A stretch of DNA of 64,000 nucleotides, taken from positions 2,604,001 to 2,668,000 of the forward strand of contig NZ_CP029463.1 in the NCBI RefSeq assembly GCF_003148385.1, read 5' to 3'. The first letter of the stretch is position 1; each line of letters starts with the position of its first letter. The notes under the pieces are model-generated. The model made no database searches. It was not told where the DNA came from and saw nothing but the letters and a program-made list of their open reading frames with translations. This document shows positions 44,803 to 61,855 of the stretch, piece by piece. The stretch is from Flavobacterium sediminis (GTDB lineage Bacteria; Bacteroidota; Bacteroidia; Flavobacteriales; Flavobacteriaceae). A program made the translations under genes and the position numbers.

Positions 44803-44810
44803 TAACTTTG
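44803..44810 (+). promoter_or_regulatory. Putative -7 element of the PUL regulator gene
   Basis: TAACTTTG matches TAnnTTTG and lies 18 bp before the GTG start at 44829. The alternative TTG start at 44808 lies inside this element, which argues against it. Confidence 0.5.
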
Positions 44811-44828
44811 GTAATAAATATTTGCTCA

Positions 44829-47576
44829 GTGAAGTTACATTTTTTTATCCTGATATTCTTTTTTCAGCATTTCCTATTTAGTCAGGAAACATTACCGTTT
44901 GTAGAAAACTTTTCCAAACAAGATTACAATGGAGATAATCAGGTTTGGAGTGTTTCGCAGGGTGATGATAATGCGTTGTATTTTGCGAATAATAGTTTTT
45001 TGATCCGTTATGACGGAGTTAAATGGGAGAAATATACATTACCTAATAAGACGATCATTCGATCGGTTTTAGCTTTTCAGGGAAAAGTATTTACCGGCTC
45101 TTATAATGAATTCGGTTTTTGGGTAAGAGAGAATGGGGTGATGAAATATACATCACTTTCGGCTGATAAAGATTTTTTTGAGGGAAACACGCGTAGTGAA
45201 GAGGTTTGGAAAATATTTTCCCTGAATAAAAAGATTTATTTTCAGACATTCAATGAACTTTACATTTATGATAGTGAAAAAATAGTAAAGAAAAATTTTC
45301 CGTATCAGATATCCTATTGCTTTGTAGTTAGGGATCGTTTGTTTGCAGCAACCGTTCATAAAGGGATCTATGAATTTCTGGGAGGAGAATTTGATAAAGT
45401 AGCCGGACTGGAACCAATTGAAGATAATATTATTTACGGTATAGATGCTTATAAGAATCAAAATTTCTTTTTTACTCAAAAGAACGGTGTTTTTGTGCAA
45501 AACGTCAATGAAGAACTGCTGGCTTGGAACCACCCGATCAATGAGAAGTTAAAAACGCAGATTATTATTACGGCTAAAGTCTTTAAGGATAAAGTTTTGA
45601 TCGGTACAGCTTTCAATGGTATTTATGTAGTTAATTTAACATCAAATGAATATTTTAACATCAATCGGTCTAATTCCCTTCGCAATAATTCAGTTTTAAG
45701 TATCAGCGTCGACAAAGAACAAGATGTTTGGTTGGGGCTGGATAACGGAATTTCGCATATTATTCTAAATTCTCCTTATCAGATTTTTTCGGATCATTCC
45801 GGGCAGTTAGGTACCGTATACAGTTTAGCGTCGTATGGGGAGGGATATTTGTTAGGGACGAATCATGGTGTTTTTGAAAGTAAGGACAATAAGCTGACTC
45901 TTATTCCTAATAGTCAGGGACAAGTGTGGGATATTGAAAAAGTAGACGATAAATATGTCATTGGGCATAACGAAGGAACCTTTGAATATTCAGAAAATAA
46001 AGGATATAGAAAGTTAAATGATCTTACTGGAGGCTGGAATTTTAAAAAGGACAAATTTGCCAATCGATACATTCAGGCTAATTACACCGGCTTGTACCTT
46101 TTTCCGGATCCGAACGATTTTTCGGTATATAAAAAGATCAATGATAAAATGAAGCCGATTAAGGACTTTGTTCAGGTAGGGCCAAAAGCCTTTGTTTTGG
46201 CAGATAGCTATCGAGGTTTGTATAAAGTAGAACTTAATGAAAAAGACGAACCGGAAAAGATAACGAATATAACTCAGTTGAATGAAATACAGAATGATTT
46301 TGGGGTAAAGTTATTTCATTATAAAAATGCTGAACTGTATTATATCGATAATGTCTGGTATTTTTTAGAGTCGATTAGTAATAAGTTGATCCCGAATGAA
46401 GTCTTTAATGCTAATTTTAAAAATATACAGGAGATCATCTCATTGGATGAGGATGATTTTATAGTAAACAAAGACGGAAAATTATTTATTATCAATAATG
46501 TAGACAATAATTTTATTTGGGTGCCAATTCCGCAAGAATATTATTTAGGAAAACTGATAAACAATGAAACAAAAGTTTATAAAAAGGAGGGGAAGTATTT
46601 ACTTAATACAGACGACGGTTTCTTACAGATTAATTCTTTGAGAAGTCAATTTGCTAAACAAAATGTAAAAATAGAGTTAGCAAGTTCTAATAATACTTTC
46701 CTGAGGGAAGGAGGGAGTGTAGGGTTTAAAGAACAGTTAAAGCTTTATGTTATTTCGGAATACTACGGAAGTAAAAAGACACCTCTTTATTATAAAATTG
46801 ACGATGAGGCGTTAGTACCGCTTGAAAAGGGAGTAGTTGAATTAAAGAATTTGGTGAGTGATTCGCATAGTATCTCGGTATATTACAACGATGGCGAGAA
46901 ATTTGTCGAGGCATCAAAGTTTAGTTTTAAGGTTTCTGACCCTTGGTATTTCTCTATATGGATGAAATTGGTTTATGTTCTGATAATTGCATCGTTACTT
47001 TTGTTGTATTACAAATGGACCAAATATAAATATTACCAAAAATTAAAACTGAAAGAAGAAGAGCTAAAGCATAAGAATGAAATCCTGCGTTTGGAGATAG
47101 AAGCAGATAATAAATTGAAACTACAGGAATATGAAAAACATATTTTGGAGAATCAGGTTCAGGCTAAAGCAAATGAATTAGCCAGTAAGTCGCTTTCGAT
47201 AGTAAAACAAGGTGAATTGATAGATAGTATTCAGAAAATATTAGATTCAGAGAAAAACATAACTTCTTTAAAAGCTAAGATCAGTAAAGCTATAAAGATC
47301 AATGCGCTTAATAAAAATGAATGGAAATCATTTGAAGAAAACTTGCTGAAGAGCAATGAAGATTTTGTAAAACAATTAACATTGAAACATCAGAATTTAA
47401 CGTCAAAAGATATTAAATTATGTATCTATCTTAAGATGAATTTATCCTCTAAAGAAATTGCCCCTTTAATGAATATCAGCTATAGAGGAGTAGAACTTCA
47501 TCGGTACAGATTACGAAAAAAGATGGATCTGGATTCTTCCGTGAACCTTAATCTGTTTATGAATAATATAAAATAA
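44829..47576 (+). CDS. PUL regulator: secreted beta-propeller/Y_Y_Y sensor with TM and HTH domain
   Basis: This protein of about 915 residues has an N-terminal signal sequence (HFFILIFFFQHFLFSQ) and a long periplasmic propeller-like region with repeated strands (DVWLGLDNGISHIIL, YLLGTNHGVFE). A Y_Y_Y-type Ig-like domain (about 615-700), one transmembrane helix (about 710-732), a coiled coil (735-800) and a C-terminal helix-turn-helix of LuxR/GerE type (about 859-900, LTSKDIKLCIYLKMNLSSKEIAPLM core) follow. There is no kinase or receiver domain, so it is a one-component membrane regulator that would bind glycan fragments outside and DNA inside. It stands directly before the SusC/SusD genes. 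The GTG start at 44829 fits the signal peptide. Confidence 0.85.
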   Translation: MKLHFFILIFFFQHFLFSQETLPFVENFSKQDYNGDNQVWSVSQGDDNALYFANNSFLIRYDGVKWEKYTLPNKTIIRSVLAFQGKVFTGSYNEFGFWVRENGVMKYTSLSADKDFFEGNTRSEEVWKIFSLNKKIYFQTFNELYIYDSEKIVKKNFPYQISYCFVVRDRLFAATVHKGIYEFLGGEFDKVAGLEPIEDNIIYGIDAYKNQNFFFTQKNGVFVQNVNEELLAWNHPINEKLKTQIIITAKVFKDKVLIGTAFNGIYVVNLTSNEYFNINRSNSLRNNSVLSISVDKEQDVWLGLDNGISHIILNSPYQIFSDHSGQLGTVYSLASYGEGYLLGTNHGVFESKDNKLTLIPNSQGQVWDIEKVDDKYVIGHNEGTFEYSENKGYRKLNDLTGGWNFKKDKFANRYIQANYTGLYLFPDPNDFSVYKKINDKMKPIKDFVQVGPKAFVLADSYRGLYKVELNEKDEPEKITNITQLNEIQNDFGVKLFHYKNAELYYIDNVWYFLESISNKLIPNEVFNANFKNIQEIISLDEDDFIVNKDGKLFIINNVDNNFIWVPIPQEYYLGKLINNETKVYKKEGKYLLNTDDGFLQINSLRSQFAKQNVKIELASSNNTFLREGGSVGFKEQLKLYVISEYYGSKKTPLYYKIDDEALVPLEKGVVELKNLVSDSHSISVYYNDGEKFVEASKFSFKVSDPWYFSIWMKLVYVLIIASLLLLYYKWTKYKYYQKLKLKEEELKHKNEILRLEIEADNKLKLQEYEKHILENQVQAKANELASKSLSIVKQGELIDSIQKILDSEKNITSLKAKISKAIKINALNKNEWKSFEENLLKSNEDFVKQLTLKHQNLTSKDIKLCIYLKMNLSSKEIAPLMNISYRGVELHRYRLRKKMDLDSSVNLNLFMNNIK

Positions 47577-47640
47577 TACTATAATTTTTATAATATCTTT
47601 ATTTTATTTCTTTTAAAATTATCAAATTATAATACATCAT

Positions 47641-47748
47641 TACTACATCACTATGTTATTATGTGTAGGGTGTTTTACAATATATTAACATTTGTAAAAT
47701 TTTGTATTATAGTTACTTATGTGTTTTTTATCTCTAAATGATGTAGTA
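47641..47748. promoter_or_regulatory. Regulatory region of the PUL with a 10-bp inverted repeat
   Basis: The 251-bp gap 47577-47827 holds TACTACATCA at 47641-47650 and its exact reverse complement TGATGTAGTA at 47739-47748. A second TACATCA begins at 47633, 11 bp before the one within the first arm. More TTGTAGT copies occur at 47749 and 47781. These are candidate binding sites for the adjacent HTH regulator. No gene is seen here. Confidence 0.5.
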
Positions 47749-47827
47749 TTGTAGTGTCTCGTTTTGTTGTTATTACAACGTTGTAGTTGTACTTTTATCG
47801 CTCAAAACCTTAACATGAATTAACAAA

Positions 47828-50821
47828 ATGAGACAAATTTTAGTAATTATTTCAATGCTCTTTATTCCGATAGTTTCCTTAGCGCAGGAAATTAAAGGAA
47901 ATGTAGTAGATGAATTCGGGACACCTCTGTCAGGGGTAACCATACAAGTTCTGGAAACAGAAAAGTATTCCATTACTGATTTTGATGGGAATTTTACAAT
48001 AGAGGCTAAAGAAGGCCAGGATTTGAAATTTACCATGATAGGTATGGAAGATTTGGTAGCCAAAGCGACTACTAATATGAATGTTGTCATGAAAGAAAGC
48101 TTGACACAATTAAATGATATTGTAATGGTAGGTTATGGTGTCAGAAAAAAAATAGATAATACTTCTTCTATAGTTTCTTTAAAAGCAGAAGACATTTCAG
48201 AACGTAAAGTACAAAATGCTGTACAAGCCGTTCAGGGTAAAGTAGCCGGGGTAAATATTACATCAAGTGATGCTCCGGGAAGCCAACCTTCTGTAATTAT
48301 AAGAGGTATTAATTCAATTGAGGGCGGTCGTAGCCCTTTGTATGTTGTGGATGGTGTTTTTATGGACGATATTACAAATATCAACTCTTCGGATATTGTA
48401 ACTTTTGATGTTTTGAAAGACGCTTCTTCATTAGCAATATACGGGACACGTGGAGCAAATGGTGTTATAATTATTACGACCAAACAAGGGAAAGGTGACA
48501 AAATGGATGTTACAATTGACTCAAATTACGGAATAAGAATGCCATTGAAAAAAGTAAAGATGTCCGGTAGTAATTTATTTGCCCTTTATAATAATACAGC
48601 TTTAGGAACCATTACTTTTTCTCAGGATCAACCGGTTAATACTAATTGGTTTGATGAAATTACCAGAACAGGTACTTATTCTCAGAACAATATTACATTA
48701 TCAGGATCAACTAAAGCAGTTGATTATATGTTAAGTAGTAATTTTTATGATGAAGATGCTATTTTAAACGGTCAAGGGTATAGCAGAGTGACCATTAGAA
48801 ATAACAACAAATTTAAATTTAATGATAATATTTATTTAAAACAAAATATTAATGTTGCTTTTGTAAATAATACACCTAAACCATACGGTGCATTTACAGC
48901 AGCATACAAACAATCTCCGGCGGTTCCGGTTTACTTTAATACAGGTCAATATGGTGTGCCTTTAGTTGGAGATGACGGTTTTGTGTCTACATCGGGTACA
49001 AATCTGTTTAATAATGTAGGTAATCCGGTAGCAATGCTTAATTTTCACAATGAGCAACAAAAGAATCTGAATTTAATTGGCGCATTTGAATTCGGTGCCA
49101 AACTATTTGACGGATTAAAATTTACTTCAAATTTCGGTATCGAGTACAATACTTTCAAATCATACAATTTTGTAGATTCAAAAAATATCTGGTTAGCAGC
49201 TGATCCTACCAGAACAAGTGAGGCTTATGATGCATTAGATCCAGCTCAACCTGTGAATTTATTGACTAAAACACGTAATAGTAATTACAAATACAATTGG
49301 TCAGGTTATTTTACTTATTCTAATGTTTTTGCAGATATTCATGATGTGGAATTAACAGCCGGTGTTGAAACGGTTTATGATGACGGAAATGAGTATCTGG
49401 CTGTAACTTATCGCGATGTGCCGGCTAATGAAAATTATTGGTATTACAGTTTTTCAACCTCTGATTTAAGCAATACTATCAATGAAGTGAAAAATAATTC
49501 CAATAGAATATTATCTTATTTCGGAAGATTGCAGTATAAATTGATGGATAAATATCTAGTGTCTGCAACGCTTAGAAGAGATGGTTCTTCCAGATTTCAG
49601 AAAGATTACAGATGGGGAACTTTTCCTTCTGTAGGAATAGGATGGATTGTTTCAAGAGAAGATTTTTTAGCAGATATCAATTTTGTTAATTTCTTAAAGG
49701 TAAGAGGTTCTTGGGGTAAACTTGGTAACCAGAAAGTACCTTTGAACCAATTGCCGTTTACTTCGGGTTTAGATTATTCTTATGGGAATGGGTATCCGTC
49801 AGCAGGGATAACAGTTTCTTCCATTGTTGACCCTGAATTAACATGGGAAGTTGTAGAAGAATTATCAGGAGGAGTAGATTTTGAAGTTTTAGATTCAAGA
49901 TTGAAAGGATCTTTTGATTTATATCATAAGAAAACAGATAAGATTATTATCCCGATTTCAGCATATCTGACTTCAGGAACGGCTAGTGCAACTTATGCTT
50001 ATGCCGGTTCTGTTTCAAATAAAGGTTATGAAATAGCATTGCGTTGGGATGATAAGATCAATGATAATTTATCGTATTGGATATCAGGGAACCTAACCCA
50101 AAATAAGAATGAATTAACCAGTTTAAGCGATAATATATCAGCTCAGACAGGTGGAGGTTTAGGGAATGGGCAATATACAAAAGTATTGAATCAAGATGCA
50201 GTAGGGCAGCCTTTAGGTAGTTTTTATTTATGGGAACAAGCAGGTTACGACGATCAGGGAAATATGACTTTTTATGACAAAGACGGAAACGTTGTGGCTC
50301 AGGATCAATTAACAGAAGATGATAGAAAATTTGTTGGTTCTGTTATGCCGAAAACTATGTATGGTTTTAGCGTGGGAGTTAAATATAAAAATTTCGATCT
50401 ATCTGTTGATGCTTACGGAACTGCCGGAGCAAAAATATATAATGGTAAGAAAGCACAACGATTTGGCGGAGAAAATGTGGAGTATGATGTAGCATCTGAT
50501 TTTTGGACATCAACAAATACAAATGCAGGTAATCCTGCCCCATTTAATACTGTGCCTATTGCTTCAACATATTACTTAGAATCAGGAGATTTCTTAAGAA
50601 TTAATAATATCTCTTTCGGATATACTTTACCTAAGTTTACGAAAGTTATTTCTTCAGCAAGAATCTATTTTAACGCGATCAATCCATTTATTTTCCAAAA
50701 ATATTCCGGTTATTCACCGGAGATCAATGGTGACGGAAACCCTTTCAATATGCAAGGGATAGAATTAGATGCTTATCCTACATTACGTTCATTTGTATTC
50801 GGAGTTAACTTAAAATTATAG
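47828..50821 (+). CDS. SusC/RagA-family TonB-linked outer-membrane transporter
   Basis: This 997-residue outer-membrane barrel imports oligosaccharides with the help of TonB and a SusD lid. It has a signal peptide (SMLFIPIVSLAQ), a carboxypeptidase-regulatory-like domain (22-100, GNVVDEFGTPLSGVTI), a TonB-box-like region (LNDIVMVGYG), a plug domain (GKVAGVNITSSDAPGSQPSV, then VVDGVFMDDI and SLAIYGTRGANGVI) and a barrel ending in FVFGVNLKL. The length is usual. It follows the regulator gene and precedes the SusD gene by 2 bp. Confidence 0.96.
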   Translation: MRQILVIISMLFIPIVSLAQEIKGNVVDEFGTPLSGVTIQVLETEKYSITDFDGNFTIEAKEGQDLKFTMIGMEDLVAKATTNMNVVMKESLTQLNDIVMVGYGVRKKIDNTSSIVSLKAEDISERKVQNAVQAVQGKVAGVNITSSDAPGSQPSVIIRGINSIEGGRSPLYVVDGVFMDDITNINSSDIVTFDVLKDASSLAIYGTRGANGVIIITTKQGKGDKMDVTIDSNYGIRMPLKKVKMSGSNLFALYNNTALGTITFSQDQPVNTNWFDEITRTGTYSQNNITLSGSTKAVDYMLSSNFYDEDAILNGQGYSRVTIRNNNKFKFNDNIYLKQNINVAFVNNTPKPYGAFTAAYKQSPAVPVYFNTGQYGVPLVGDDGFVSTSGTNLFNNVGNPVAMLNFHNEQQKNLNLIGAFEFGAKLFDGLKFTSNFGIEYNTFKSYNFVDSKNIWLAADPTRTSEAYDALDPAQPVNLLTKTRNSNYKYNWSGYFTYSNVFADIHDVELTAGVETVYDDGNEYLAVTYRDVPANENYWYYSFSTSDLSNTINEVKNNSNRILSYFGRLQYKLMDKYLVSATLRRDGSSRFQKDYRWGTFPSVGIGWIVSREDFLADINFVNFLKVRGSWGKLGNQKVPLNQLPFTSGLDYSYGNGYPSAGITVSSIVDPELTWEVVEELSGGVDFEVLDSRLKGSFDLYHKKTDKIIIPISAYLTSGTASATYAYAGSVSNKGYEIALRWDDKINDNLSYWISGNLTQNKNELTSLSDNISAQTGGGLGNGQYTKVLNQDAVGQPLGSFYLWEQAGYDDQGNMTFYDKDGNVVAQDQLTEDDRKFVGSVMPKTMYGFSVGVKYKNFDLSVDAYGTAGAKIYNGKKAQRFGGENVEYDVASDFWTSTNTNAGNPAPFNTVPIASTYYLESGDFLRINNISFGYTLPKFTKVISSARIYFNAINPFIFQKYSGYSPEINGDGNPFNMQGIELDAYPTLRSFVFGVNLKL

Positions 50822-50823
50822 TT

Positions 50824-52275
50824 ATGAAAAAGATACTTTATACAATTACAATTATTTCATCATTATGTATCTACAGTTGTAGTGATGATTATTTAGATGA
50901 AAAACCAACGGAATCAATATCTACTTCTGATCTGGAATTATTGAATAACGATGAAGGAGCTAAATCATTTGTAACTTCTATCTATTCAAAGTTCACAGAG
51001 TGGAATATGAGTTCATTCTCTTGGGTGGGTATGACCAGTATTGCATCGGACGATGCAGACAAAGGATCCTCTCCGGGAGATACAGGTACCGATAAAGATT
51101 TGATGGATAATTTAACATACAATGCATCCAGTTTATCGGTTAAGGAAGTATTTCAAGGAAATTATCAAGGAGTTAGCAACTGTAATCAGGCTTTGTTCTA
51201 TATTCCTCAATTAACTAATGCAAATTCGGATCTGAAAGAGCGTTTAATGGCAGAAGCCAAGTTCTTAAGAGCTTTTATGTATTTCAATCTTGTTAGATTG
51301 TATGGAGGAGTGCCAATTGTGGATCATGTGCCTAACCCGTCTTCAGATGAAGATAAAGCAATGCAGTTGACCAGAAAATCAGTAGCTGAAGTGTATGATT
51401 TTATCAAACAAGATTTAACCGATGCAATTGATGTTTTACCGTATATTAATCAATATGGATCTGAAGATGCCGGTAGAGCATCAAAAGAAGCGGCTTATGC
51501 ATTGATGGCAAAAGTAGCTTTATATGAGCAAAATTGGACTGATGTTTTAAATTATGCAAATCAAATTACCAGTCGTTCTCTAACACCTGATTATATTGAA
51601 ATATTCAAAGTAACAGGAGAAAATAATCAAGAATCAATCTTTGAAATTCAAGGTAGAGGAACAAATCCCGTAAAAGGAATTCAAGGATACTCAGCTTGTC
51701 AAGGTGCCAGAGGTGCCGGAGGCTGGGGCTGGGGTTTTAATACACCGTCTCAAAGTTTGGTAAATGCTTATGAAACCGGTGACGTACGTAAAGATGCTAC
51801 AATTATTTTTGCAGGTACAACTTTATACGACGGAAGAGTCGTTCCTAATACTGTCGAGAATCCCAGATATAATTACAAGGCTTATTCTTCTGCTAATTCC
51901 GATGCATGGGAAACAGATACTAATATTCGCTACCTGAGATATGCTGAAGTATTATTAATGATAGCTGAGGCTAAGAATGAATTAGGACAAGATCCTACAA
52001 CGGAATTGAATATGGTTAGAAACAGAGCCGGTTTAACTAATACAACAGCAACTGGGCAAACTGCTCTTAGACAGGCTATTTGGAATGAAAGACGAGTAGA
52101 ATTGGCTATGGAACACGATAGATGGTTTGATTTGGTTCGTACAGGACAGGCTGAAGCTGCATTTGCTGCAGACGGTAAAACATTTATAGTTGGCAAACAC
52201 GAAGTTTTCCCATTACCGCAACAGTTTATCAATGAATCAATAGGATATTCGATCCAAAACCCTATGTACAACTAA
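50824..52275 (+). CDS. RagB/SusD-family glycan-binding lipoprotein
   Basis: This 483-residue surface lipoprotein forms the lid of the SusC channel. It has a signal peptide with lipobox (IYSC) followed by SDDYLDEKPTESIS, the SusD start motif. TPR-like helices show LKERLMAEAKFLRAFMYFNLVRLYGGVP (abbreviated AEAKFLRAFMYFNLVRLYG) and the C-terminal RYAEVLLMIAEAKNELG, RLVELAMEHDRWFDLVRTG-like RRVELAMEHDRWFDLVR and PLPQQFINESIG. It is coupled to susC by a 2-bp gap. The bound glycan is predicted from context to be a beta-glucan. Confidence 0.95.
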   Translation: MKKILYTITIISSLCIYSCSDDYLDEKPTESISTSDLELLNNDEGAKSFVTSIYSKFTEWNMSSFSWVGMTSIASDDADKGSSPGDTGTDKDLMDNLTYNASSLSVKEVFQGNYQGVSNCNQALFYIPQLTNANSDLKERLMAEAKFLRAFMYFNLVRLYGGVPIVDHVPNPSSDEDKAMQLTRKSVAEVYDFIKQDLTDAIDVLPYINQYGSEDAGRASKEAAYALMAKVALYEQNWTDVLNYANQITSRSLTPDYIEIFKVTGENNQESIFEIQGRGTNPVKGIQGYSACQGARGAGGWGWGFNTPSQSLVNAYETGDVRKDATIIFAGTTLYDGRVVPNTVENPRYNYKAYSSANSDAWETDTNIRYLRYAEVLLMIAEAKNELGQDPTTELNMVRNRAGLTNTTATGQTALRQAIWNERRVELAMEHDRWFDLVRTGQAEAAFAADGKTFIVGKHEVFPLPQQFINESIGYSIQNPMYN

Positions 52276-52289
52276 TTTAGATTTAAATC

Positions 52290-53179
52290 ATGAGAAAATA
52301 TAATAAATTACTTTTTGCTTTAGCACTAACTTCGGTTTTTGTTGCATGTCAGGATGATGAAGATCCAAATAATCCGATTCCGTATACTCCGATTGGGGAT
52401 ACGTTAATTCAGATGAGATTAGTTCTGATAATTTAGTCTGTAAATTGAGTTTTGAAAATTCATTTGATGATGAGAAATCAGGAATTATAAATCCTACATC
52501 ATATGGAAATGTCTCATTTGTTTCAGGGATCAAAGGAAATGCTTATCAAGGAGCAACCGATGCTTATGTAAAATATGAAGATGTTGCTACACAAGTTTCA
52601 GATTTACAAAGTATGACAGTTTCTACTTGGATCAATACAACACAACATACCGGTGGGGCACAGGCTTTGTATATGTTACCCAAAACATCCGGTTTCTGGG
52701 GAAACAACTTCATGTTAATTGAAGGTACAAGTACTGATATGATGACTCTTAAAGTTCATTTCCAAAAAAATGTGACTCCTTCAATTCCTTATGCAGAACA
52801 ATGGTTGGTTAATGACGGTACTAATGCTTTAGCAGATATGTATGGCAATCAATGGAAGCATATTACTTGGACGTATAATGCTGATACCTCTAAATATCAT
52901 ATTTATGTTGATGGTACAGATGTAACACCTGCTGCAATAATCAATAGATATACAAATGATCCGGATTCAGGAGGAACGCCATTAGGAGCTTTATCTTTTG
53001 CAGATGTGCAAAACTTTGTATTGGGAGGCTACCAACAATTCTTAGGATCGCCTTGGAGTGCTCCGGATAGCTGGATGTTGCCTTATACAGGGGCTATGGA
53101 TGAATTCAGAATTTATAATGTAGCATTATCACAAAATGATATCAATGCCTTATATCAGTTAGAAAGACAAGGTAGATAA
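52290..53179 (+). CDS. PUL surface lipoprotein with LamG domain (one frameshift)
   Basis: The frame opens at ATG 52290 with a signal peptide and lipobox (TSVFVAC) and stops early at 52436. One extra G in the four-G run 52395-52398 changes the path to GYVNSDEISSDNLVCKLSFE and continues to 53179, giving 296 residues. The restored protein has a single laminin-G/concanavalin-like domain (about 55-290), with SMTVSTWINTTQHTG, NQWKHITWTYNADTSKYHIY (abbreviated WKHITWTYN) and GAMDEFRIYNVALSQ. It sits in the place of SusE/SusF-type surface glycan-binding proteins and would bind the target polysaccharide. Confidence 0.8.
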
Positions 53180-53192
53180 ATCATTAAATAAT

Positions 53193-53220
53193 AGTAAACT
53201 CCGGTTTTCCGGAGTTTACT
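53193..53220 (+). terminator. Hairpin inside the PUL between the LamG and GH144-like genes
   Basis: A perfect 12-bp stem AGTAAACTCCGG / CCGGAGTTTACT with a 4-T loop is followed by a T/A-rich tract. It may partly terminate transcription, so that binding proteins are made in excess over enzymes, or stabilise the upstream message. Confidence 0.75.
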
Positions 53221-53240
53221 TTAAATTTTCAAAAAAACGC

Positions 53241-54620
53241 ATGAAAAAACTAAAATTAGCTTTATTGAGTGTAATTCTTGCCGTGTCTTGTAGTTCAGAA
53301 TCGGGAGGAGGAAATGACGGTTCAGGGACACCACTGCCTACAAACCCTTCTGCGTCTTTATCTGATGACGAATTAATGACACAAGTACAAAGAGAATCTT
53401 TTCGTTATTTCTGGGATTTAGCACACCCTGATTGTAAATTAGCAAGAGAACGTTACCTGATAGATGATCCGACATACGATCAGAATATTGTTACCACAGG
53501 AGGTTCAGGATTTGGTTTAATGACTATTTTAGTTGGTATTGAAAGAGGTTTTGTTCAAAGAGCAGAAGCTGTTACAAGATTAACTACAGCACTGAATTTC
53601 TTAGAAAATGCCGATCGTTTCCACGGCGCCTGGCCACATTGGATGAACGGTACTACAGGTGATGTTATCCCTTTCGGGACAATGGACAACGGAGGAGACT
53701 TAGTAGAAACAGCTTTTTTATGTGAAGGATTGATCTGCGTTAGAGAGTATTTTAAAAATGGAAGTGCTGCAGAACAGGCTTTATCTCAAAAAGCAAATGC
53801 TTTATGGGAAGGAGTAGAGTGGGATTGGTATACTAAAGGAGAGAATGCTCTATACTGGCATTGGTCTCCCGATTATGAGTGGCAAATGAACTTTAAACTG
53901 GAAGGCTATAACGAATGTCTGGCAGCTTACATTATGGGGGCAGCTTCGCCGACTCATCCTATTCCTAACGAAGCCTATCATCAGGCTTGGGCCAGAAACG
54001 GGGCTATTGTAACTTCAGGGACTAAATATGGAATCCCTTTGATTTTCAATCACAACGGAGCGACTAATAATGTAGGACCGCTTTTCTGGGCTCATTATTC
54101 TTATTTAGGATTAGACCCCAGAGGACTTTCAGATCAGTATGCAAACTATTGGGATCTGAATAAAAACCATACGGAAATTATATATCAACATTGTGTGACG
54201 AACCCTAATAATTGGAATGGGTATAGTGATAAATGTTGGGGACTTACGGCAAGTTATACCCGAAATTCAGACGGTTCAACAGGCTATACCGCTCATCAAC
54301 CTAATAATGACACAGGTGTCATTACCCCTACGGCAGCTTTATCTTCATTTCCGTATACTCCGACAGAATCCATGCGTTTTTTACGCTATTTATATGAAGA
54401 AAAGAAAGCTACACTGGTAGGCTATGCCGGACCTTATGATGCTTTTTCGCCACCATATAACTGGGTAACAAGAAGATATTTAGCTATTGATCAGGGAACT
54501 ATTGCTCCGATGATCGAAAATCATAGAACCGGATTGCTATGGGATTTATTCATGCAGGCAACCGAAGTTCAAACCGGATTACAAAACTTAGGATTTTCAT
54601 CAACTCAACACGGATTTTAA
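53241..54620 (+). CDS. GH144-like glucoamylase-family lipoprotein (putative endo-beta-1,2-glucanase)
   Basis: This 459-residue lipoprotein (signal peptide with VSCSS lipobox) belongs to the family labelled glucoamylase (PF10091), which founds GH144. Characterised GH144 members are endo-beta-1,2-glucanases. Motifs seen are RESFRYFWDLAHPDCKLARER (abbreviated FRYFWDLAHPDC), a GFGLM segment, FHGAWPHWMNG, the NGGDLVETAF core, YWHWSPDYEWQMNFKLEGYNE (abbreviated LYWHWSPDYEW), FWAHYSYLGLDPRG and CWGLTASYT. It likely cleaves beta-1,2-glucan at the cell surface or periplasm. Its stop overlaps the next ATG (TAATG). Family assignment is confident; the linkage cleaved is inferred. Confidence 0.85.
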   Translation: MKKLKLALLSVILAVSCSSESGGGNDGSGTPLPTNPSASLSDDELMTQVQRESFRYFWDLAHPDCKLARERYLIDDPTYDQNIVTTGGSGFGLMTILVGIERGFVQRAEAVTRLTTALNFLENADRFHGAWPHWMNGTTGDVIPFGTMDNGGDLVETAFLCEGLICVREYFKNGSAAEQALSQKANALWEGVEWDWYTKGENALYWHWSPDYEWQMNFKLEGYNECLAAYIMGAASPTHPIPNEAYHQAWARNGAIVTSGTKYGIPLIFNHNGATNNVGPLFWAHYSYLGLDPRGLSDQYANYWDLNKNHTEIIYQHCVTNPNNWNGYSDKCWGLTASYTRNSDGSTGYTAHQPNNDTGVITPTAALSSFPYTPTESMRFLRYLYEEKKATLVGYAGPYDAFSPPYNWVTRRYLAIDQGTIAPMIENHRTGLLWDLFMQATEVQTGLQNLGFSSTQHGF

Positions 54621-55315
54621 TGAAAAATATAATTGTTCTTGCAGTATTCTTATGGTTTAATATCACTTTGGCTCAAGAGGTAACCGGAAATTTTGAGACC
54701 ACTGTTTCAACGAGTTATTCGTATCAATATACTTTGCATAAACCTAAAGGTAAGGATAAAAAACCGCTTATCATTTTTTTACACGGATCAGGTGAAAAAG
54801 GACACGATATTGAATTGGTAAAGGTTCACGGACCTTTTAAATATTTAAAGACACATGAATTGGACGCTTACGTTTTAGCCCCTCAGTGTCCGAAAGAAGC
54901 ATATTGGGAACCGGAATCACTATATCGCTTGATTCAAAATATAATCAAAGAAAATAAAAATATAGACGAATCACGAATTTACTTGACAGGTCTAAGTATG
55001 GGAGCCTGGGGAGCCTGGAATCTAGCTTTTGCTCACCCTGAAAGCTTTGCTGCTTTAGTGCCCATTGCAGGTTTTGTAGATCGTGTACCAATGATCGAAA
55101 ATTGTAAAATAAGCAAAATCCCAACACGAATTTTTCATGGATTGGTTGATGATGTTGTAGATGTTCGATATTCCATTGAGATCTATAAAAAATTAAAGAA
55201 TTGCAATGAAGATATCGAACTAACCATTTTTGATGACGCAAATCATGATAGTTGGACAAGAGTCTATGATGACCCCGAAATTTACAATTGGATGCTTGCT
55301 CAACAAAAGAATTAA
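54620..55315 (+). CDS. Secreted alpha/beta-hydrolase (esterase-like)
   Basis: This 231-residue protein has a signal peptide (VLAVFLWFNITLAQ). It has the alpha/beta-hydrolase fold with LIIFLHGSGEKGHD (oxyanion loop), the nucleophile Ser126 in GLSMGAWGAW, the Asp in FHGLVDDVVD and the His in DANHDSW. Such proteins are often annotated phospholipase/carboxylesterase or dienelactone hydrolase-like, and in PULs may remove acyl groups from glycans. The ATG 54620 overlaps the GH144 stop by one base. It is followed by the GH3 gene 24 bp later. The true substrate is unknown. Confidence 0.85.
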   Translation: MKNIIVLAVFLWFNITLAQEVTGNFETTVSTSYSYQYTLHKPKGKDKKPLIIFLHGSGEKGHDIELVKVHGPFKYLKTHELDAYVLAPQCPKEAYWEPESLYRLIQNIIKENKNIDESRIYLTGLSMGAWGAWNLAFAHPESFAALVPIAGFVDRVPMIENCKISKIPTRIFHGLVDDVVDVRYSIEIYKKLKNCNEDIELTIFDDANHDSWTRVYDDPEIYNWMLAQQKN

Positions 55316-55339
55316 TCTACTATAAACAAAAACAAACCA

Positions 55340-57649
55340 ATGAAATTAAAGATAATAAGTATACTATTAGCAACAATAACGATCTCCGGTTCTGCTTTGG
55401 CTCAAAAGAAGAACAAACAGAGAACTGTTCCGCCTAAAGATATTTTGGTCAATGAATTGATCGCTAAAATGACTTTAGAAGAAAAAATCGGACAGTTAAA
55501 TCTGCCAAGTGCCGGAGAATTTACTACCGGACAGGCTACAAACTCTGATATAGGAGAGAAAATCGAAAAAGGACTAGTAGGAGGTTTATTCAATATAAAA
55601 TCTGTAGCACGCATCAGAGACGTACAAAAAGTTGCTATTGAAAAAAGCCGACTGAAAATTCCTTTGATCTTTGGTATGGATGTTATTCACGGCTACGAAA
55701 CTACGTTTCCTATACCTTTAGGTTTATCATGCAGTTGGGATATGGATAATATCAAAAGATCAGCGCAGATTGCAGCTAAAGAAGCCAGTGCCGATGGAAT
55801 TAACTGGACCTTTTCTCCCATGGTCGATATTTCTCGTGATCCGCGTTGGGGAAGAGTTTCAGAAGGTTCAGGCGAAGATGCTTATTTAGGAAGTCAAATT
55901 TCTAAAGCCATGGTGCAAGGATATCAGGGAGCAAGCTTAATGGATAACAATACAATTATGGCTTGTGTGAAACATTTTGCATTGTATGGTGCTCCGGAAG
56001 CCGGTAGAGATTACAATACGGTTGATATGAGCCGTATTCGTATGTATAATGAATATTTCCCGCCATACAAAGCAGCTGTTGAAGCCGGAGTAGGTTCGGT
56101 TATGGCATCATTTAATGAAATCGACGGAATTCCGGCTACGGGAAACAAATGGCTAATGACAGATGTATTGCGTAACCAATGGAAATTCAATGGTTTTGTA
56201 GTAACTGATTATACCGGGATCAATGAAATGATAGCACACGGAATGGGCGATTTACAAGCCGTTTCTGCTTTAGCAATGAATGCCGGAATCGATATGGATA
56301 TGGTTGGAGAAGGCTTTCTGACAACCTTGAAGAAATCAATTGAAGAAGGAAAAGTACCCATAGATCAGTTAGATGCTGCCGTAAAACGAATTTTAGAAGC
56401 AAAATACGATTTAGGCTTGTTTCACGATCCATATAAATATTGTGATGTAAAACGTGCTAAAACAGAAATTTTTACGAAAGAAAATCGTCAGATTGCTCAA
56501 AATATCGCGGCTGAATCTTTTGTTTTGTTGAAAAACTCAAATTCAGTTTTACCATTACAAACCAATCAAAAAGTGGCTTTAGTTGGTCCTTTGGCAATTG
56601 CGCAAAAACACATGCCGGGAACTTGGAGTGTGGCGACCAATTTTGATACACCAATTACTTTAAAAACTGCTTTAGAAGCTAAATTAGGCAAAGCAAATGT
56701 TAATTATGCAATGGGCTGTAATTTTGATTATGATGATGCGTTTGTTGAAAAAGCAGGTTTCTTCGGAAAACCATTACCAAGCGATAACAGAGCAAAAGAA
56801 GTGCTTTGGGCAGAAGCTTTAGAAGCAGCAAAAAGATCAGATGTAATTGTATTTGCTATCGGAGAAGGAGCCGAACTAAGCGGAGAATCGAGTAGTAGAA
56901 CAAACCTTTTGATTCCCCAGGCTCAGAAAGACTTATTGAAAGAATTGAAAAAAGCGAACAAGCCGATTGTTTTGGTATTGTTTAATGGTCGTCCTTTAGC
57001 AATTACTGAGGAAAATGAATTAGCAGATGCTATTTTAGACGTTTGGTTCCCGGGAACTGAAGCAGGTCCTGCCATTACTGATGTACTGTATGGAACGGTA
57101 AATCCTTCAGGAAAATTATCAATGACTTTCCCTAGAAATGTTGGACAAGTGCCAATTTTCTATAGCCATAAGAATACGGGTAGACCTTTAAGTTTGGAAA
57201 AAACACAAAAAGGCGAATTCGAAAAATTCCGTTCTAATTATTTAGACGTTCCAAACACACCATTATTCCCGTTTGGTTATGGATTGAGTTATACGACCTT
57301 TGAGTACTCAAACTTAAAGTTGTCATCAAATACGTTGTCGAAAGGCGAGAAAATTACCGTTTCGGTAGAGGTTAAGAACACAGGAAATTATGACGGAAAA
57401 GAAGTCGTTCAATTATATATCAGAGATTTAGTAGGTTCAGTAACAAGACCGGTTAAAGAATTAAAAGCATTCCGAAAAGTTACTCTTAAAAAAGGAGAAA
57501 CACAAACACTACAGTTTGACTTAACTGAAGAAGATTTGAAGTTCTACAATTCTAATTTAGATTTTGTAGCGGAACCCGGAACGTTCGAAGTTTTTGTAGG
57601 AACCAATTCTGATACCCAGATGAAATTAAAATTTGAGTTAGTAAAGTAA
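55340..57649 (+). CDS. bglX: GH3 beta-glucosidase (BglX-like)
   Basis: This 769-residue exported glycosidase has a signal peptide (ATITISGSALAQ), the GH3 N-terminal barrel and the alpha/beta sandwich domain. A C-terminal FN3-like domain contains FPFGYGLSYTTFEYSNL. Motifs are EEKIGQLNL, FGMDVIHGYETTFP, SEGSGEDAYLG, CVKHFALYGAPEAGRDYN, and the nucleophile Asp290 in VVTDYTGI. The acid/base region contains GESSSRTNL. GH3 enzymes of this type release glucose from beta-gluco-oligosaccharides. In the context of a GH144-like enzyme it is a candidate beta-1,2-glucosidase, as described for BT_3567 of Bacteroides thetaiotaomicron; this linkage is inferred. Confidence 0.95.
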   Translation: MKLKIISILLATITISGSALAQKKNKQRTVPPKDILVNELIAKMTLEEKIGQLNLPSAGEFTTGQATNSDIGEKIEKGLVGGLFNIKSVARIRDVQKVAIEKSRLKIPLIFGMDVIHGYETTFPIPLGLSCSWDMDNIKRSAQIAAKEASADGINWTFSPMVDISRDPRWGRVSEGSGEDAYLGSQISKAMVQGYQGASLMDNNTIMACVKHFALYGAPEAGRDYNTVDMSRIRMYNEYFPPYKAAVEAGVGSVMASFNEIDGIPATGNKWLMTDVLRNQWKFNGFVVTDYTGINEMIAHGMGDLQAVSALAMNAGIDMDMVGEGFLTTLKKSIEEGKVPIDQLDAAVKRILEAKYDLGLFHDPYKYCDVKRAKTEIFTKENRQIAQNIAAESFVLLKNSNSVLPLQTNQKVALVGPLAIAQKHMPGTWSVATNFDTPITLKTALEAKLGKANVNYAMGCNFDYDDAFVEKAGFFGKPLPSDNRAKEVLWAEALEAAKRSDVIVFAIGEGAELSGESSSRTNLLIPQAQKDLLKELKKANKPIVLVLFNGRPLAITEENELADAILDVWFPGTEAGPAITDVLYGTVNPSGKLSMTFPRNVGQVPIFYSHKNTGRPLSLEKTQKGEFEKFRSNYLDVPNTPLFPFGYGLSYTTFEYSNLKLSSNTLSKGEKITVSVEVKNTGNYDGKEVVQLYIRDLVGSVTRPVKELKAFRKVTLKKGETQTLQFDLTEEDLKFYNSNLDFVAEPGTFEVFVGTNSDTQMKLKFELVK

Positions 57650-57665
57650 TGTTTTAGTTTAAGTT

Positions 57666-57698
57666 AAATACCCTTTGGAATATCACTAAAGGGTATTT
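57666..57698 (+). terminator. Hairpin after the GH3 gene, within the PUL
   Basis: An 11-bp stem AAATACCCTTT / AAAGGGTATTT with an 11-nt loop is followed by T residues, 17 bp after the GH3 stop. It may be a partial terminator. Confidence 0.75.
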
Positions 57699-57718
57699 TT
57701 TAGTAAAGGAAGTAACTC

Positions 57719-59536
57719 ATGAAAAAAATAATTGTAGCAATACTAACCATGATCTCTGTTTTTCAGGGATTTGCTCAGCAAAAGACATTTTGTAATCCGG
57801 TCAATATCGATTATGGTTATACACCTATTCCTAATTTTACGAAACAAGGAAAGCATCGCGCAACAGCAGATCCGGTTATTGTTAATTTTCAGAATAAATA
57901 CTTTTTGTTTGCAACCAATCAATGGGGCTATTGGTGGAGTGATGATATGCTACATTGGAATTATATCCAACGGAAATTCTTAAAATCGGAAAACGAATAC
58001 CCTTCATTGAATGATGGTGTAAAAGCCGACCATAAGCTTGATGAAAAGAACAAGGTATATGACGAGCTATGTGCTCCGGCTGTCTTTGTTATGAAAGGAT
58101 ATATGTACGTAATTGGTTCCACACACGGACCTGATTTTGCTCTATGGAGAAGTAAGGATCCTTTAGCAAACGAATGGGAAAAAGCAGTTGACAACTTTAA
58201 AGTAGGAGCCTGGGATCCGGGTTTTTTATACGATGAAGAAAAAGATAAGTTATTCCTATATTGGGGATCCAGTAATGAATTTCCTCTTTTCGGAACAGAA
58301 ATAAATACGACAACTTTACAGTCAGAAGGTTTTGTAAAACCAATATTGACTTTAAAACCCGAAGATCATGGTTGGGAACGTTTCGGGGAATACAATGATA
58401 ATACGTTTTTGCAACCTTTTATGGAAGGCGCCTGGATGACCAAATATAAAAATAAATATTACTTGCAATATGCTGCGCCGGCAACGGAATTCAGCGGATA
58501 TGCAGATGGTGTTTATGTTAGTTCAAATCCATTGGAGGGCTTTGCTTACCAGCAACACAATCCCTTGTCCTATAAACCGGGCGGATTTGCTCGCGGAGCC
58601 GGTCACGGAGCCACATATCAGGACAATTTCGGAAACTGGTGGCACGTTTCAACCATTATTCTGGGACAAAAAAATAATTTTGAAAGACGGATCGGGATCT
58701 GGCCTGCCGGTTTTGATAAGGATGACGTGATGTATTGTAATACGGCTTACGGAGATTATCCTACATTTATTCCGGAATATGCTAAAGATAAAGATTTTAC
58801 ACAAGGATTATTTGCCGGGTGGATGTTGCTGAACTACAATAAACCGGTTCAGGTTTCTTCTACTTTGGGAGGATATGCTCCGAATTTTGCAGTAGATGAA
58901 GATATGAGAACCTATTGGAGTGCACAAACAGGAGAAAAAGGGGAATGGTTTCAAACGGATTTAGGTGAAATATCGACAATAAATGCTATACAGATCAATT
59001 ATGCTGATCAGGATGTAGAATTTATGGGAAAAAGCTCCGGAGTTGCACACCAATACAAAATTTGGGCATCTGATGACGGTAAAAAATGGAAACTGGCAGT
59101 AGATAAAAGCAAAAACAGAACAGATGTCCCTCATGATTATATCGAATTAGTAAAGCCTGTAAAAGCGCGTTACCTGAAATTGGAGAACATCAAAATGCCA
59201 ACCGGGAAATTTGCTTTGAGTGGTTTCCGTGTTTTTGGAAAAGGAAACGGGAAAAAACCTGAAAAAGTCGAAAATTTTATGGTTTTACGAGCAGATAAGA
59301 ATAAATTTGGCGAAAGAAGAAGTTCGTGGATCCGTTGGAAACAAAATAATCAGGCTGAAGGCTATGTGATCTATTTTGGTAAATCGCCTGATAAATTATA
59401 CGGAAGTATTATGGTTTACGGTAAAAGTGATTATTTCTTTACAGGGATGGATCGAACCGACACCTATTATTTCCAAATAGAGGCCTTTAATGCTAACGGA
59501 ATTAGCGAAAGAACTCCAGTTATAAAAGTAGACTGA
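57719..59536 (+). CDS. GH43-like glycoside hydrolase with discoidin (F5/8 type C) and FN3-like domains
   Basis: This 605-residue exported protein has a signal peptide (MISVFQGFAQ). The N-terminal five-bladed propeller (about 25-330) has GH43-like motifs: an Asp in TADPVIVNFQNKYFLFAT, then ELCAPAVFVMKGYMYVIGST, abbreviated ELCAPAVF, and WDPGFLYDEEKDKLFLYWG. A discoidin-like carbohydrate-binding domain (about 370-505) follows, with FAVDEDMRTYWSAQTGEKGE, abbreviated DEDMRTYWSAQ, and RYLKLENIKMP. A short FN3-like end (about 510-605) completes it. Which of the many GH43 subfamilies it belongs to cannot be read here, so the substrate is open. It overlaps the next gene by one base (TGATG). Confidence 0.82.
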   Translation: MKKIIVAILTMISVFQGFAQQKTFCNPVNIDYGYTPIPNFTKQGKHRATADPVIVNFQNKYFLFATNQWGYWWSDDMLHWNYIQRKFLKSENEYPSLNDGVKADHKLDEKNKVYDELCAPAVFVMKGYMYVIGSTHGPDFALWRSKDPLANEWEKAVDNFKVGAWDPGFLYDEEKDKLFLYWGSSNEFPLFGTEINTTTLQSEGFVKPILTLKPEDHGWERFGEYNDNTFLQPFMEGAWMTKYKNKYYLQYAAPATEFSGYADGVYVSSNPLEGFAYQQHNPLSYKPGGFARGAGHGATYQDNFGNWWHVSTIILGQKNNFERRIGIWPAGFDKDDVMYCNTAYGDYPTFIPEYAKDKDFTQGLFAGWMLLNYNKPVQVSSTLGGYAPNFAVDEDMRTYWSAQTGEKGEWFQTDLGEISTINAIQINYADQDVEFMGKSSGVAHQYKIWASDDGKKWKLAVDKSKNRTDVPHDYIELVKPVKARYLKLENIKMPTGKFALSGFRVFGKGNGKKPEKVENFMVLRADKNKFGERRSSWIRWKQNNQAEGYVIYFGKSPDKLYGSIMVYGKSDYFFTGMDRTDTYYFQIEAFNANGISERTPVIKVD

Positions 59537-60420
59537 TGAAAAAGGTATTGTTTTTATTTTTTTGCGTTTCAACCTTAGCATTTGCTCAGAACGATTTGAA
59601 TGTTATGTCGTATAATGTGCGTTTAGCTTCAGTAGATGACGGCGATAATAGTTGGGAGATACGAAAAGAAAGAGTTGCCCGTTTAATTGAATATTATGAA
59701 CCTGATTTTTTAGGAATGCAGGAAGTTCAGAAAGTACAATTGGATTTTTTGTTGGAAAACCTTCCGCAGTACCGATTTATTGGTTTACCAAGAGAAGAAG
59801 GAATTCATGCGGAATACTCCTGTATTTTTTACAATGCTGAAAAATACAAAGTATTAGAAGAAAAAACTTTTTGGCTTTCCGAAATTCCGGACGAAATGTC
59901 TAAAGGTTGGGATGCTGCTTGTCATCGAATTGTGACGTACGGATTATTTCAGGATAAAAAGAGCAAACAGAAATTCTGGATCGTCAATACCCATCTGGAT
60001 CATGTCGGTTTAAAAGCCAGAGAAGAATCGGCTAAAATACTGGTTCAATTGGCTAAAGAACTGAAGGCTAAAAAAGATATTCCGTTCATTCTTACAGGTG
60101 ATTTCAATGCCGAACCTAACGATACGGTTATTACAACTTTAAAAGAAGATCTAAAAGAAGCAAGTTCGGTTTCAAAAACAAAACCGTATGGTAACTCTAT
60201 CCATACCTGGAATGCTTTTCAGTTTTATAAAATACCTGATAAACAGATAGATTACATTTTCTTTGATAAAAAAACTTCAATTTACGTTCGAAAATTCAAT
60301 ACAATTAACGATTTTTATGACTTCAAATATCCGTCCGATCATTTACCGATTTTGGCAACGTTTTATTTGAACTACAAAAAAATAAATAACAAACCAATAA
60401 ATACGTTTTATACTATATGA
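59536..60420 (+). CDS. Endonuclease/exonuclease/phosphatase (EEP) family secreted protein
   Basis: This 294-residue protein has a signal peptide (FLFFCVSTLAFAQ). All EEP motifs are present: VMSYNVRLAS, LGMQEVQ, WIVNTHLDHVG, LTGDFNAEPND and the end SDHLPILATF. These are metal-dependent phosphoesterases; secreted Bacteroidota members are found in PULs, where the substrate has seldom been defined. Both edges are coupled: it overlaps the GH43 gene by one base and the permease gene by four (ATGA). This makes it part of the locus, and its likely substrate is a phosphodiester linked to the glycan. It is not a nuclease by location. Confidence 0.88.
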   Translation: MKKVLFLFFCVSTLAFAQNDLNVMSYNVRLASVDDGDNSWEIRKERVARLIEYYEPDFLGMQEVQKVQLDFLLENLPQYRFIGLPREEGIHAEYSCIFYNAEKYKVLEEKTFWLSEIPDEMSKGWDAACHRIVTYGLFQDKKSKQKFWIVNTHLDHVGLKAREESAKILVQLAKELKAKKDIPFILTGDFNAEPNDTVITTLKEDLKEASSVSKTKPYGNSIHTWNAFQFYKIPDKQIDYIFFDKKTSIYVRKFNTINDFYDFKYPSDHLPILATFYLNYKKINNKPINTFYTI

Positions 60421-61855
60421 GTACATCAAATAAACAGACTAATTGGGCTCAATTTATTCCTTTAGTTTCGGTATTTTTCTTTTGGGGATTCGTTGCAGCC
60501 AGTAATGATATTTTAATTCCTGTTTTTAAAAAAGCATTTGATTTAACGCAAGGTCAAAGTCAATTGGTGTCAGTTGCTTTTTATGTTGCCTATACGGTAG
60601 GTGCTTTACTTTATATGCTGATTTCAAGATTAATAAAAGTAGATGTAGTTCAAAAATTAGGATATAAAAACAGTTTGTCCTTAGGCTTACTGATTTCGGC
60701 CTTAGGAACGTTATTGTTTTATCCGGCTGCTAATACAGGTTCGTTTGCTTTAATGTTGTCAGGCTTGTTTACTGTAGGTTTAGGTTTTTCATTGCAACAA
60801 ACGGTTGCTAATCCTTTGGCAATTGTGTTAGGTCCTATTGCTACGGGTTCTCAGCGATTAACTTTAGCGGGTGGAATCAATAACTTCGGAACAACTATAG
60901 GTCCCTTAATTGTAACGTACGCAATTTTTGGAGCAAAGCCGGCTGTAAACCACGTAATTGATATTGCTACCGTAAAAGTTCCGTATTTAATTTTAGGTTT
61001 AGCTTTTGCATTAGTGGCTATTCTATTAAAATTTTCAAGTTTACCAAATAAAATTAAAGAACAAGGAGAGGAAGAAGTAGCAACTGTTAAAGACGTTCGT
61101 TCATCAGCTTTAAAATATCCGCAATTGTTAATGGGAATGTTAGCAATTTTTGTATATGTAGGAGTTGAGGTTTCTACGGCTAGTAATATGCCGGCTTATT
61201 TAGAGGCTGGTTTAGGAATGTCAATTAGTGAAGTAGCCCCTTATGTATCTTTATATTGGGGAAGTTTAATGATCGGACGCTGGACAGGAGCTGTAGAAGC
61301 TTTAGGACTTTCTGCCGGAATGCAAAAAGTAATGAAATTTATTATGCCTTATATTGCTTTTGGAGTGTTCTTATTGGCAAGTTACTTGGCAGGGAAAGAT
61401 TTACAACCATTTTATGTATATGCGGCTGTAATTTTAGTATTGATTGTTGCAGATTTTGCCAGTAAAGGAAATCCGGCTACGATGTTGTTGATCTTTTCAG
61501 GTTTAGGAATTACAGCTTTAGCAATTGGAATGGCTACTAGCGGAATGGTAAGCGTTTATGCGTTTACAAGTGTTGGTTTGTTCTGTTCTACGTTATGGCC
61601 ATGTATCTTTACATTAGCTATTAGTGGATTAGGAAAACATACTACTCAAGGAAGTAACTTTTTAATCATGATGATTATGGGGGAGGAATCGTAAGTTGGA
61701 TTCAAGGTTTTGTGGCTGATCTAACATCTCCTCATTTTAGTTATATCGTAGGAGTTGTTTGTTTTGCTTATTTAGCGTTCTATGCTTATACCGTAAAAGA
61801 TATCTTAACAAAACAAGGAATCAATTTTGATAAAAAAGTAAGTGGAGGTCACTAA
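60417..61855 (+). CDS. FHS-type sugar MFS transporter (one frameshift, probably a sequencing error)
   Basis: This is a 12-helix major facilitator of the fucose/glucose-galactose permease (FHS) family that imports sugars across the inner membrane. The frame breaks at the G-run 61679-61683. One extra G restores 479 residues, continuing as GGGIVSWIQGFVADLT and ending SGGH. Motifs are FFWGFVAASNDILIPVFKKAF, abbreviated FFWGFVAASNDIL, QTVANPLAIVLGP, LTLAGGINNFGTTIGPLI, abbreviated GINNFGTTIGP, and YWGSLMIGRWTGAVEAL. It is coupled to the EEP gene by ATGA. It probably takes up glucose or the sugar released by the PUL enzymes. Confidence 0.9.

Follow-up and report, generated by a model that had tools for sequence, protein, structure and literature searches.

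Analysis of a 64,000-nucleotide stretch of DNA from Flavobacterium sediminis (the window; G000:C1:2604001-2668000, part of a 3.44-Mb single-contig genome) revealed a polysaccharide utilization locus (PUL) at 44808-61855, a run of genes on the + strand in which adjacent susC and susD genes are joined by genes of carbohydrate-active enzymes (CAZymes), including a GH144 enzyme, and by a secreted phosphoesterase of the EEP family. We lean towards reading it as a common GH144-type beta-1,2-glucan utilization locus in a variant for a substituted polymer, its substrate being likely a substituted beta-1,2-glucan. The more unusual feature is the recurrence of phosphoesterases in GH144 loci; the core itself is ordinary, and a decorated polymer had already been inferred from sulfatases. 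The genes of the locus are as follows.

44808..47576, + strand: regulator with a C-terminal LuxR-type helix-turn-helix and a TTG start (PF00196 at residues 864-914, 24.4 bits, cut-off 23.5); the Pfam scan of this protein gave no match in its N-terminal part
47828..50821, + strand: SusC-like TonB-dependent outer-membrane transporter (TIGR04056, 717 bits; PF07715, PF13715)
50824..52275, + strand: SusD-like glycan-binding lipoprotein (PF07980, PF14322)
52290..53179, + strand: LamG-type surface lipoprotein, broken frame (PF13385 in 52445-53179)
53241..54620, + strand: GH144 protein, predicted beta-1,2-glucanase, with lipoprotein signal ..LAVSC (5gzh, 5z06, PF10091)
54620..55315, + strand: secreted alpha/beta-hydrolase of the esterase type, EST (PF02230/PF00326; esterase 3doh, E=6.1e-25)
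55340..57649, + strand: secreted GH3 protein, predicted beta-glucosidase (PF00933, PF01915, PF14310)
57719..59536, + strand: GH43-fold enzyme with an F5/8C domain (Asp51/Asp166/Glu236 triad)
59536..60420, + strand: secreted EEP phosphoesterase with five EEP motifs (PF03372, 61.7 bits; 3g6s, 3mpr, 4c1r)
60417..61855, + strand: FHS-type sugar permease (MFS), broken frame (PF07690; TIGR01272, 176.8 bits, below its cut-off of 202.55)

The original prediction for this DNA had given the order GH144, esterase, GH3, GH43-like, EEP and permease on the + strand, which is borne out by Pfam and the open reading frames, and the three overlaps that it named are all present in the sequence: TAATG at 54618-54622 (GH144 stop and esterase start), TGATG at 59534-59538 (GH43-like stop and EEP start) and ATGA at 60417-60420 (EEP stop and permease start). 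Regarding the N-termini, which were read by eye, the GH144 and LamG proteins are lipoproteins, whereas the esterase, GH3, GH43-like and EEP proteins have ordinary signal peptides, a distribution that suggests cutting at the cell surface and trimming in the periplasm. The GH3 enzyme is predicted to be periplasmic and the LamG lipoprotein is probably glycan-binding.

The assignment to GH144 made by the original prediction is confirmed by comparison with solved structures (phmmer), in which the protein matched CpSGL of Chitinophaga pinensis (5gzh) with E=3.9e-158 over residues 25-454, and by PF10091 (256 bits, cut-off 27). Further matches were 5gzk, also CpSGL, the entries 4qt9, 3eu8 and 4gl3 (named putative glucoamylase) and, with E=3e-103, BDI_3064 (5z06), which we take to be an exo enzyme releasing sophorose. 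Glu225 and Glu156 of the window protein are invariant in 15 aligned GH144 homologues and align with Glu211 (construct numbering), presumably the general acid, and Glu142 of CpSGL, respectively. Glu142 is described as the base candidate, and an exo enzyme of the BDI_3064 kind is placed in GH144, in a review (PMC11842490). The possibility that the GH144 call was wrong was ruled out by the similarity to CpSGL, PF10091 and the invariant glutamates. The likeness to CpSGL thus extends over the catalytic domain and to both the acid and base-candidate residues, and the window enzyme, for which the endo-type CpSGL is a closer match than BDI_3064, is predicted from its sequence to be endo-type. The GH3 protein, called a beta-glucosidase by the original prediction, is indeed close to 3u48 (1111 bits) and 5xxl (1037 bits), the latter being BT_3567, which we take to be a beta-1,2-glucooligosaccharide glucosidase.

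The esterase carries GLSMG at residue 124 of its 231-amino-acid form. For the GH43-like protein the earlier label holds as to fold and active site, with a five-bladed GH43 propeller and an intact Asp51/Asp166/Glu236 triad, but not as to Pfam, since the window protein on its own has no match to PF04616; this family was matched by 32 of 46 aligned family members. That it is merely an F5/8C protein was ruled out by the fold, the triad and the PF04616 matches of its relatives. The EEP protein combines PF03372 with the motifs SYNVR, MQEV, NTHLDH, GDFN and SDHLP, and the solved structures most similar to it are 3g6s, 3mpr and 4c1r, of which 4c1r is named mannosyl-6-phosphatase (E=2.2e-41). An exodeoxyribonuclease was considered and rejected, as the NCBIfam models of such enzymes scored far below their cut-offs and the best solved relatives were those just named; a tree of 21 chosen EEPs has no bearing on the nuclease question because it contains no known nuclease. 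The EEP protein is expected to have as its target a phosphorylated sugar, either a mono- or a diester, and not a nucleic acid.

The surroundings of GH144 genes were surveyed in three sets: 80 named loci, the best 80 of 592 by the GH144 profile and chosen for closeness to the window GH144; 14 stretches from 13 of 16 other GH144 genomes (G003, G019 and G057, which hold fragments, were left out); and 38 loci obtained by sampling 296 genomes evenly over the class, GH144 being present at E up to 1e-60 in 41 of these genomes. Together with the window these gave 133 loci, or 129 after the duplicates L024, L135, L139 and L140 were dropped. To be counted, a gene had to share the strand of GH144, lie no more than 10 kb from it and be separated from it by no opposite-strand gene of more than 450 bases. 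Two EEPs were thereby excluded, that of L106 because it is on the opposite strand and that of L161 because of intervening opposite-strand genes. Since the flanks extend no further than about 10 kb, the counts of accessory genes are minimum values; representatives of these families were verified with Pfam. Among the 129 loci, SusC and SusD were each found in 118, GH3 in 111, the esterase in 89, the regulator in 79, LamG in 73, the GH43-like gene in 65, a sulfatase in 23, a second alpha/beta-hydrolase in 15, GDPD in 15, GH97 in 13, EEP and FHS in 11 each, SGNH in 10, GH2 in 6 and a calcineurin-like gene in 4. A recount with the window's own proteins (half coverage in brackets) gave GH3 111 (108), SusC 117 (116), SusD 118, esterase 89, GH43-like 65 (64), EEP 11 and FHS 11 (10); the LamG figure is soft, with 73 by profile and 45 (41) by the window protein. 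The core is thus a common kind of locus, and its gene order is more than chance, since GH144 has this set of neighbours again and again across the 129 distinct loci of Bacteroidota. Those with the nearest GH144, among the named loci (best 80 of 592 by profile), are mostly from Flavobacterium. Two or more GH144 genes occur in 57 of the 129 loci; the window has one.

A phosphoesterase accompanies GH144 in 30 of the 129 loci and comes from one of three unrelated families, EEP (11), GDPD (15) or calcineurin-like (4); no locus of the 129 holds two of these families, although at such numbers the absence of overlap is not telling. The even class sample of 38 loci contributed six (L134, L135, L138, L139, L154 and L155), two of them from duplicates. 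On the starred branches of a quick GH144 tree at least six gains or losses are forced for EEP, at least five for GDPD and at least three for the calcineurin-like family. Loci with EEP or GDPD have a GH43-like gene in 22 of 26 cases, compared with 43 of the 103 others (Fisher p 1.2e-4, not corrected for kinship), and the two genes are often direct neighbours. GDPD directly precedes the GH43-like gene in 14 of 15 loci (gap median 31, range 24-184), standing between GH3 and GH43-like in 14 Flavobacterium-type loci (e.g., L046:14489-15271) and directly behind GH144 in the distant L154. EEP lies directly behind the GH43-like gene in 5 of 11 loci, and in all five loci that have both as neighbours the gap is -1 to 4 bases. 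In four further Flavobacteriaceae loci (L083, L091, L100 and L104), whose genera we take to be marine, EEP directly follows a sulfatase instead (gap median -4, range -4 to 80), so that two ester-removing enzymes, sulfatase and EEP, are coupled there. The GDPD motifs HRG..EN[ST] and EFDV are kept in 15 of 15 proteins.

These data bear on one alternative, namely an ordinary locus for undecorated beta-1,2-glucan in which the EEP protein and the esterase would be mere bystanders or serve as broad scavengers. GH144, GH3 and SusCD should suffice for such a substrate, and 99 of the 129 loci are without a phosphoesterase by the counting rule; however, an esterase in 89 loci, a sulfatase in 23 and three phosphoesterase families spread over the GH144 tree speak for decoration, and we consider a plain glucan unlikely. 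Regarding the sulfatases, the proposal that this sulfatase-like accessory is a phosphodiesterase was rejected, since 21 of 23 carry CxPSR, the motif that marks sulfatases, while SGPSR stands in another and the last shows no motif within its first 130 residues.

Regarding the nature of the decoration, the original prediction proposed that the substrate derives from periplasmic or cyclic glucans of other bacteria, with the esterase removing succinyl groups and the EEP protein, as a phosphodiesterase, removing phosphoglycerol. Osmoregulated periplasmic glucans (OPGs) do carry phosphoglycerol, succinyl and phosphoethanolamine (PMC10514313; PMC11842490). The MdoG/OpgG family had no match in the window genome, so that such a glucan would come from other bacteria, and a GDPD-family glycerophosphodiesterase, the type of enzyme wanted, is encoded in 15 of the 129 loci. 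The window locus itself has no GDPD, however, and the named relative of its EEP protein is a mannosyl-6-phosphatase; activity of the EEP protein on diesters is nonetheless conceivable. GH144 and GH3 agree with a beta-1,2-glucan, but their partners speak against a plain periplasmic one: GH43-like (65 of 129), GH97 (13) and GH2 (6) suit a hetero-glycan better than an all-glucose OPG, and the presence of a GH43-type enzyme in 65 loci suggests a branch made of something other than glucose, which is absent from periplasmic glucans. Sulfatases occur in 23 relatives' loci, and we know of no sulfated OPGs. An OPG as the substrate therefore appears rather doubtful. GH97, an alpha-glucosidase or alpha-galactosidase family (e.g., L041:14470-16569), could open the alpha-1,6 link of alpha-1,6-cyclized beta-1,2-glucans or take off an alpha-linked branch.

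Alternatively, the EEP protein may be a sugar-6-phosphate phosphatase of the mannosyl-6-phosphatase kind that was recruited by several glycan loci, its target being a heteroglycan of fungal, algal or bacterial origin that is phosphorylated, has a backbone of beta-1,2-glucan and is unrelated to OPGs. This is suggested by 4c1r, which presumably comes from the yeast-mannan loci of B. thetaiotaomicron and shares with the window protein the EEP family, corresponding motifs and a glycan-locus setting, although the window EEP sits with GH144 and GH43-like genes and not with mannan enzymes. The GH43-like partner also fits. We know of no phosphorylated heteroglycan with a beta-1,2-glucan backbone, which counts against this alternative, and the GDPD of sister loci suggests a diester; we regard it as possible, but not as the better bet. 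The breakdown of yeast mannan uses phosphatases (PMC10154615), and EEP is also found in the neighbourhood of GH92, which it adjoins in L121 and from which it lies 7-8 kb away in L124 and L125. In 13 genomes, all six other EEPs seen by eye within 10 kb of a listed SusD (L115-L120) are accompanied by GH30 and by GH5 (about 580 amino acids, assigned by Pfam) or GH16. EEP is a general glycan-locus enzyme.

The association was further compared with SusD genes at large in 13 genomes, which are kin to one another and gave, among the matches listed, 219 PF07980 matches, 13 of them GH144-linked and about 206 others. GDPD lay within 10 kb of 4 of the 13 GH144-linked SusD genes and of 2 of the about 206 listed others (Fisher p 1e-4), a contrast that depends on the radius, since nine further GDPDs were seen by eye at 13-17 kb from a listed SusD. 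The two cases away from GH144 are L126, a PF07980 locus, and L129, whose SusD belongs to PF12771 and is strictly outside the 206; retrieval covered 5 of the 18 GDPDs lying away from GH144 loci. With 22 GDPD and 68 EEP genes in about 57 Mb, a same-strand copy within 10 kb would be expected by chance in about 0.4% of loci for GDPD and 1.2% for EEP.

It is also conceivable that EEP (and GDPD) are phosphate-starvation enzymes that settled in the operon and have no bearing on the glucan. Flavobacterium has SusCD-like loci with phosphatases that are induced by phosphate depletion, and the Pus system of Flavobacterium johnsoniae resembles the window in pairing a SusCD-like transporter with a phosphoesterase (PMC8115612). 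In that description, however, the phosphate-regulated PusCD loci, with phosphatases and phosphodiesterases, are distinct from the SusCD loci, which mostly have carbohydrate enzymes (PMC8115612); the window operon is dominated by carbohydrate enzymes (GH144, GH3 and GH43-like) and does not show the co-localisation typical of Pus, and its EEP gene, whose frame overlaps those of its neighbours, is embedded in a glycosidase operon. Phosphate scavenging is therefore improbable.

The reading as a locus for a substituted beta-1,2-glucan rests on a GH144 enzyme near CpSGL with its acid and base-candidate residues, a GH3 enzyme near 3u48 and 5xxl, a neighbourhood conserved in 129 loci, three phosphoesterase families in 30 of these and the association of EEP or GDPD with the GH43-like gene. 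Several observations weigh against it. EEP is missing, on the same strand within 10 kb, from 118 of the 129 loci, and its presence in GH30/GH5 or GH16 loci and by GH92 indicates that it is not specific to beta-1,2-glucan. In the tree of 21 chosen EEPs the window protein groups with those of L035, L037 and L049 (100/100), and the tree is compatible with one origin of the GH144-locus EEPs. Just five EEPs of the 11, those of the window, L035, L037, L049 and L134, keep all five motif patterns, while the remaining six miss one to three motifs, L061 being cut by the locus end. Across the 129 loci no association of phosphoesterase presence was seen with the esterase gene (p 0.48) or with the sulfatase gene (p 0.78), and to our knowledge no GH43 activity on glucosides has been described. 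Finally, two genes of the locus are interrupted. The original prediction ended the permease at 61855, thereby reading across a frame break that it did not mention: the frame is shifted near 61680 at a run of G and stops at 61694 (425 amino acids), with the tail in another frame to 61855, whereas relatives in L037 and L049 have 477-478 amino acids in a single frame. The LamG gene between susD and GH144 is frameshifted near 52390-52440, its signal peptide and domain lying in separate frames, and is unbroken (287-307 amino acids) in L035, L037, L049 and L134. The locus may thus be in decay, or indel errors may be present in the assembly. A further SusD match of this genome (G000:C1:3207362-3207838) has an open frame of only 174 amino acids, so that frameshifts may be common in this assembly.

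If the substrate is a substituted beta-1,2-glucan, the GH144 lipoprotein would cut the backbone at the cell surface and SusC/SusD would import the pieces, from which the esterase would take off acyl groups in the periplasm. The GH43-type enzyme and EEP, encoded by overlapping genes, would clear a phosphate-bearing branch or substituent, the phosphate sitting either on the branch that the GH43-like enzyme takes off or next to it; GH3 would turn the bare beta-1,2-oligosaccharides into glucose, and the permease would import it. That the ester can be a glycerophosphodiester is best hinted at by the GDPD of sister loci. The GDPD of L046 matches residues 6-235 of 7wwc, a 479-residue chain named beta-1,3(4)-glucanase (E=1.7e-75), so that in 7wwc, as in 7ww4, the same kind of GDPD is apparently joined to a beta-glucanase as an N-terminal part. 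More tentatively, these loci could share a widespread polymer, not yet isolated, built on a beta-1,2-glucan backbone whose non-glucose branch has an anionic group attached. This group would be a phosphoester in some habitats (attacked by any of EEP, GDPD or calcineurin-like enzymes), whereas mostly marine bacteria would meet sulfate with or without phosphate; the window would hold the EEP version.

GH144 PULs are abundant, and the marine ones add a sulfatase, from which an unknown decorated polymer was inferred (Lapebie et al., 2019; PMC6499787). The Maribacter dokdonensis cluster combines two GH144 genes, GH3, susCD and a sulfatase (PMC8072126), and the Bxy_22780/22790 cluster of Bacteroides xylanisolvens combines GH144 with a GH35 beta-1,2-galactosidase (PMC11739564). 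The window resembles the GH144 PULs of Bacteroidota in having susCD with GH144, and the Maribacter cluster also in GH3, but adds EEP directly behind the GH43-like gene. The original prediction knew of no description of its combination of genes, and in the open-licence papers searched no description of phosphoesterases in GH144 loci was found, the GH144 passages of PMC10405439, PMC9122927 and PMC11748540 containing nothing on them; PULs for decorated beta-1,2-glucan, however, had already been inferred (PMC6499787). In the passages of the latter paper the composition matrix covers CAZyme families, sulfatases and peptidases, so that phosphoesterases would not show, and the passage on phosphodiesterases concerns susCD loci without CAZymes. 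Recurrent phosphoesterases beside a conserved GH43-like gene give a testable hint at the chemistry of the target of marine-form GH144 loci, called an unknown polysaccharide there (PMC6499787), namely a phosphorylated or glycerophosphorylated, branched and acylated beta-1,2-glucan, for the dissection of which GH144, GDPD, EEP, the GH43-like enzyme and the esterase are candidate tools.

Two further kinds of loci were encountered in the comparison. L115-L120 are SusCD loci of a recurring Flavobacterium type in which an EEP gene accompanies several GH30 genes and GH5 or GH16. L129 (2783-10173) encodes a large SusC-like transporter, a SusD of PF12771 and a GDPD-like protein, and is perhaps a locus for the uptake of glycerophosphodiesters.

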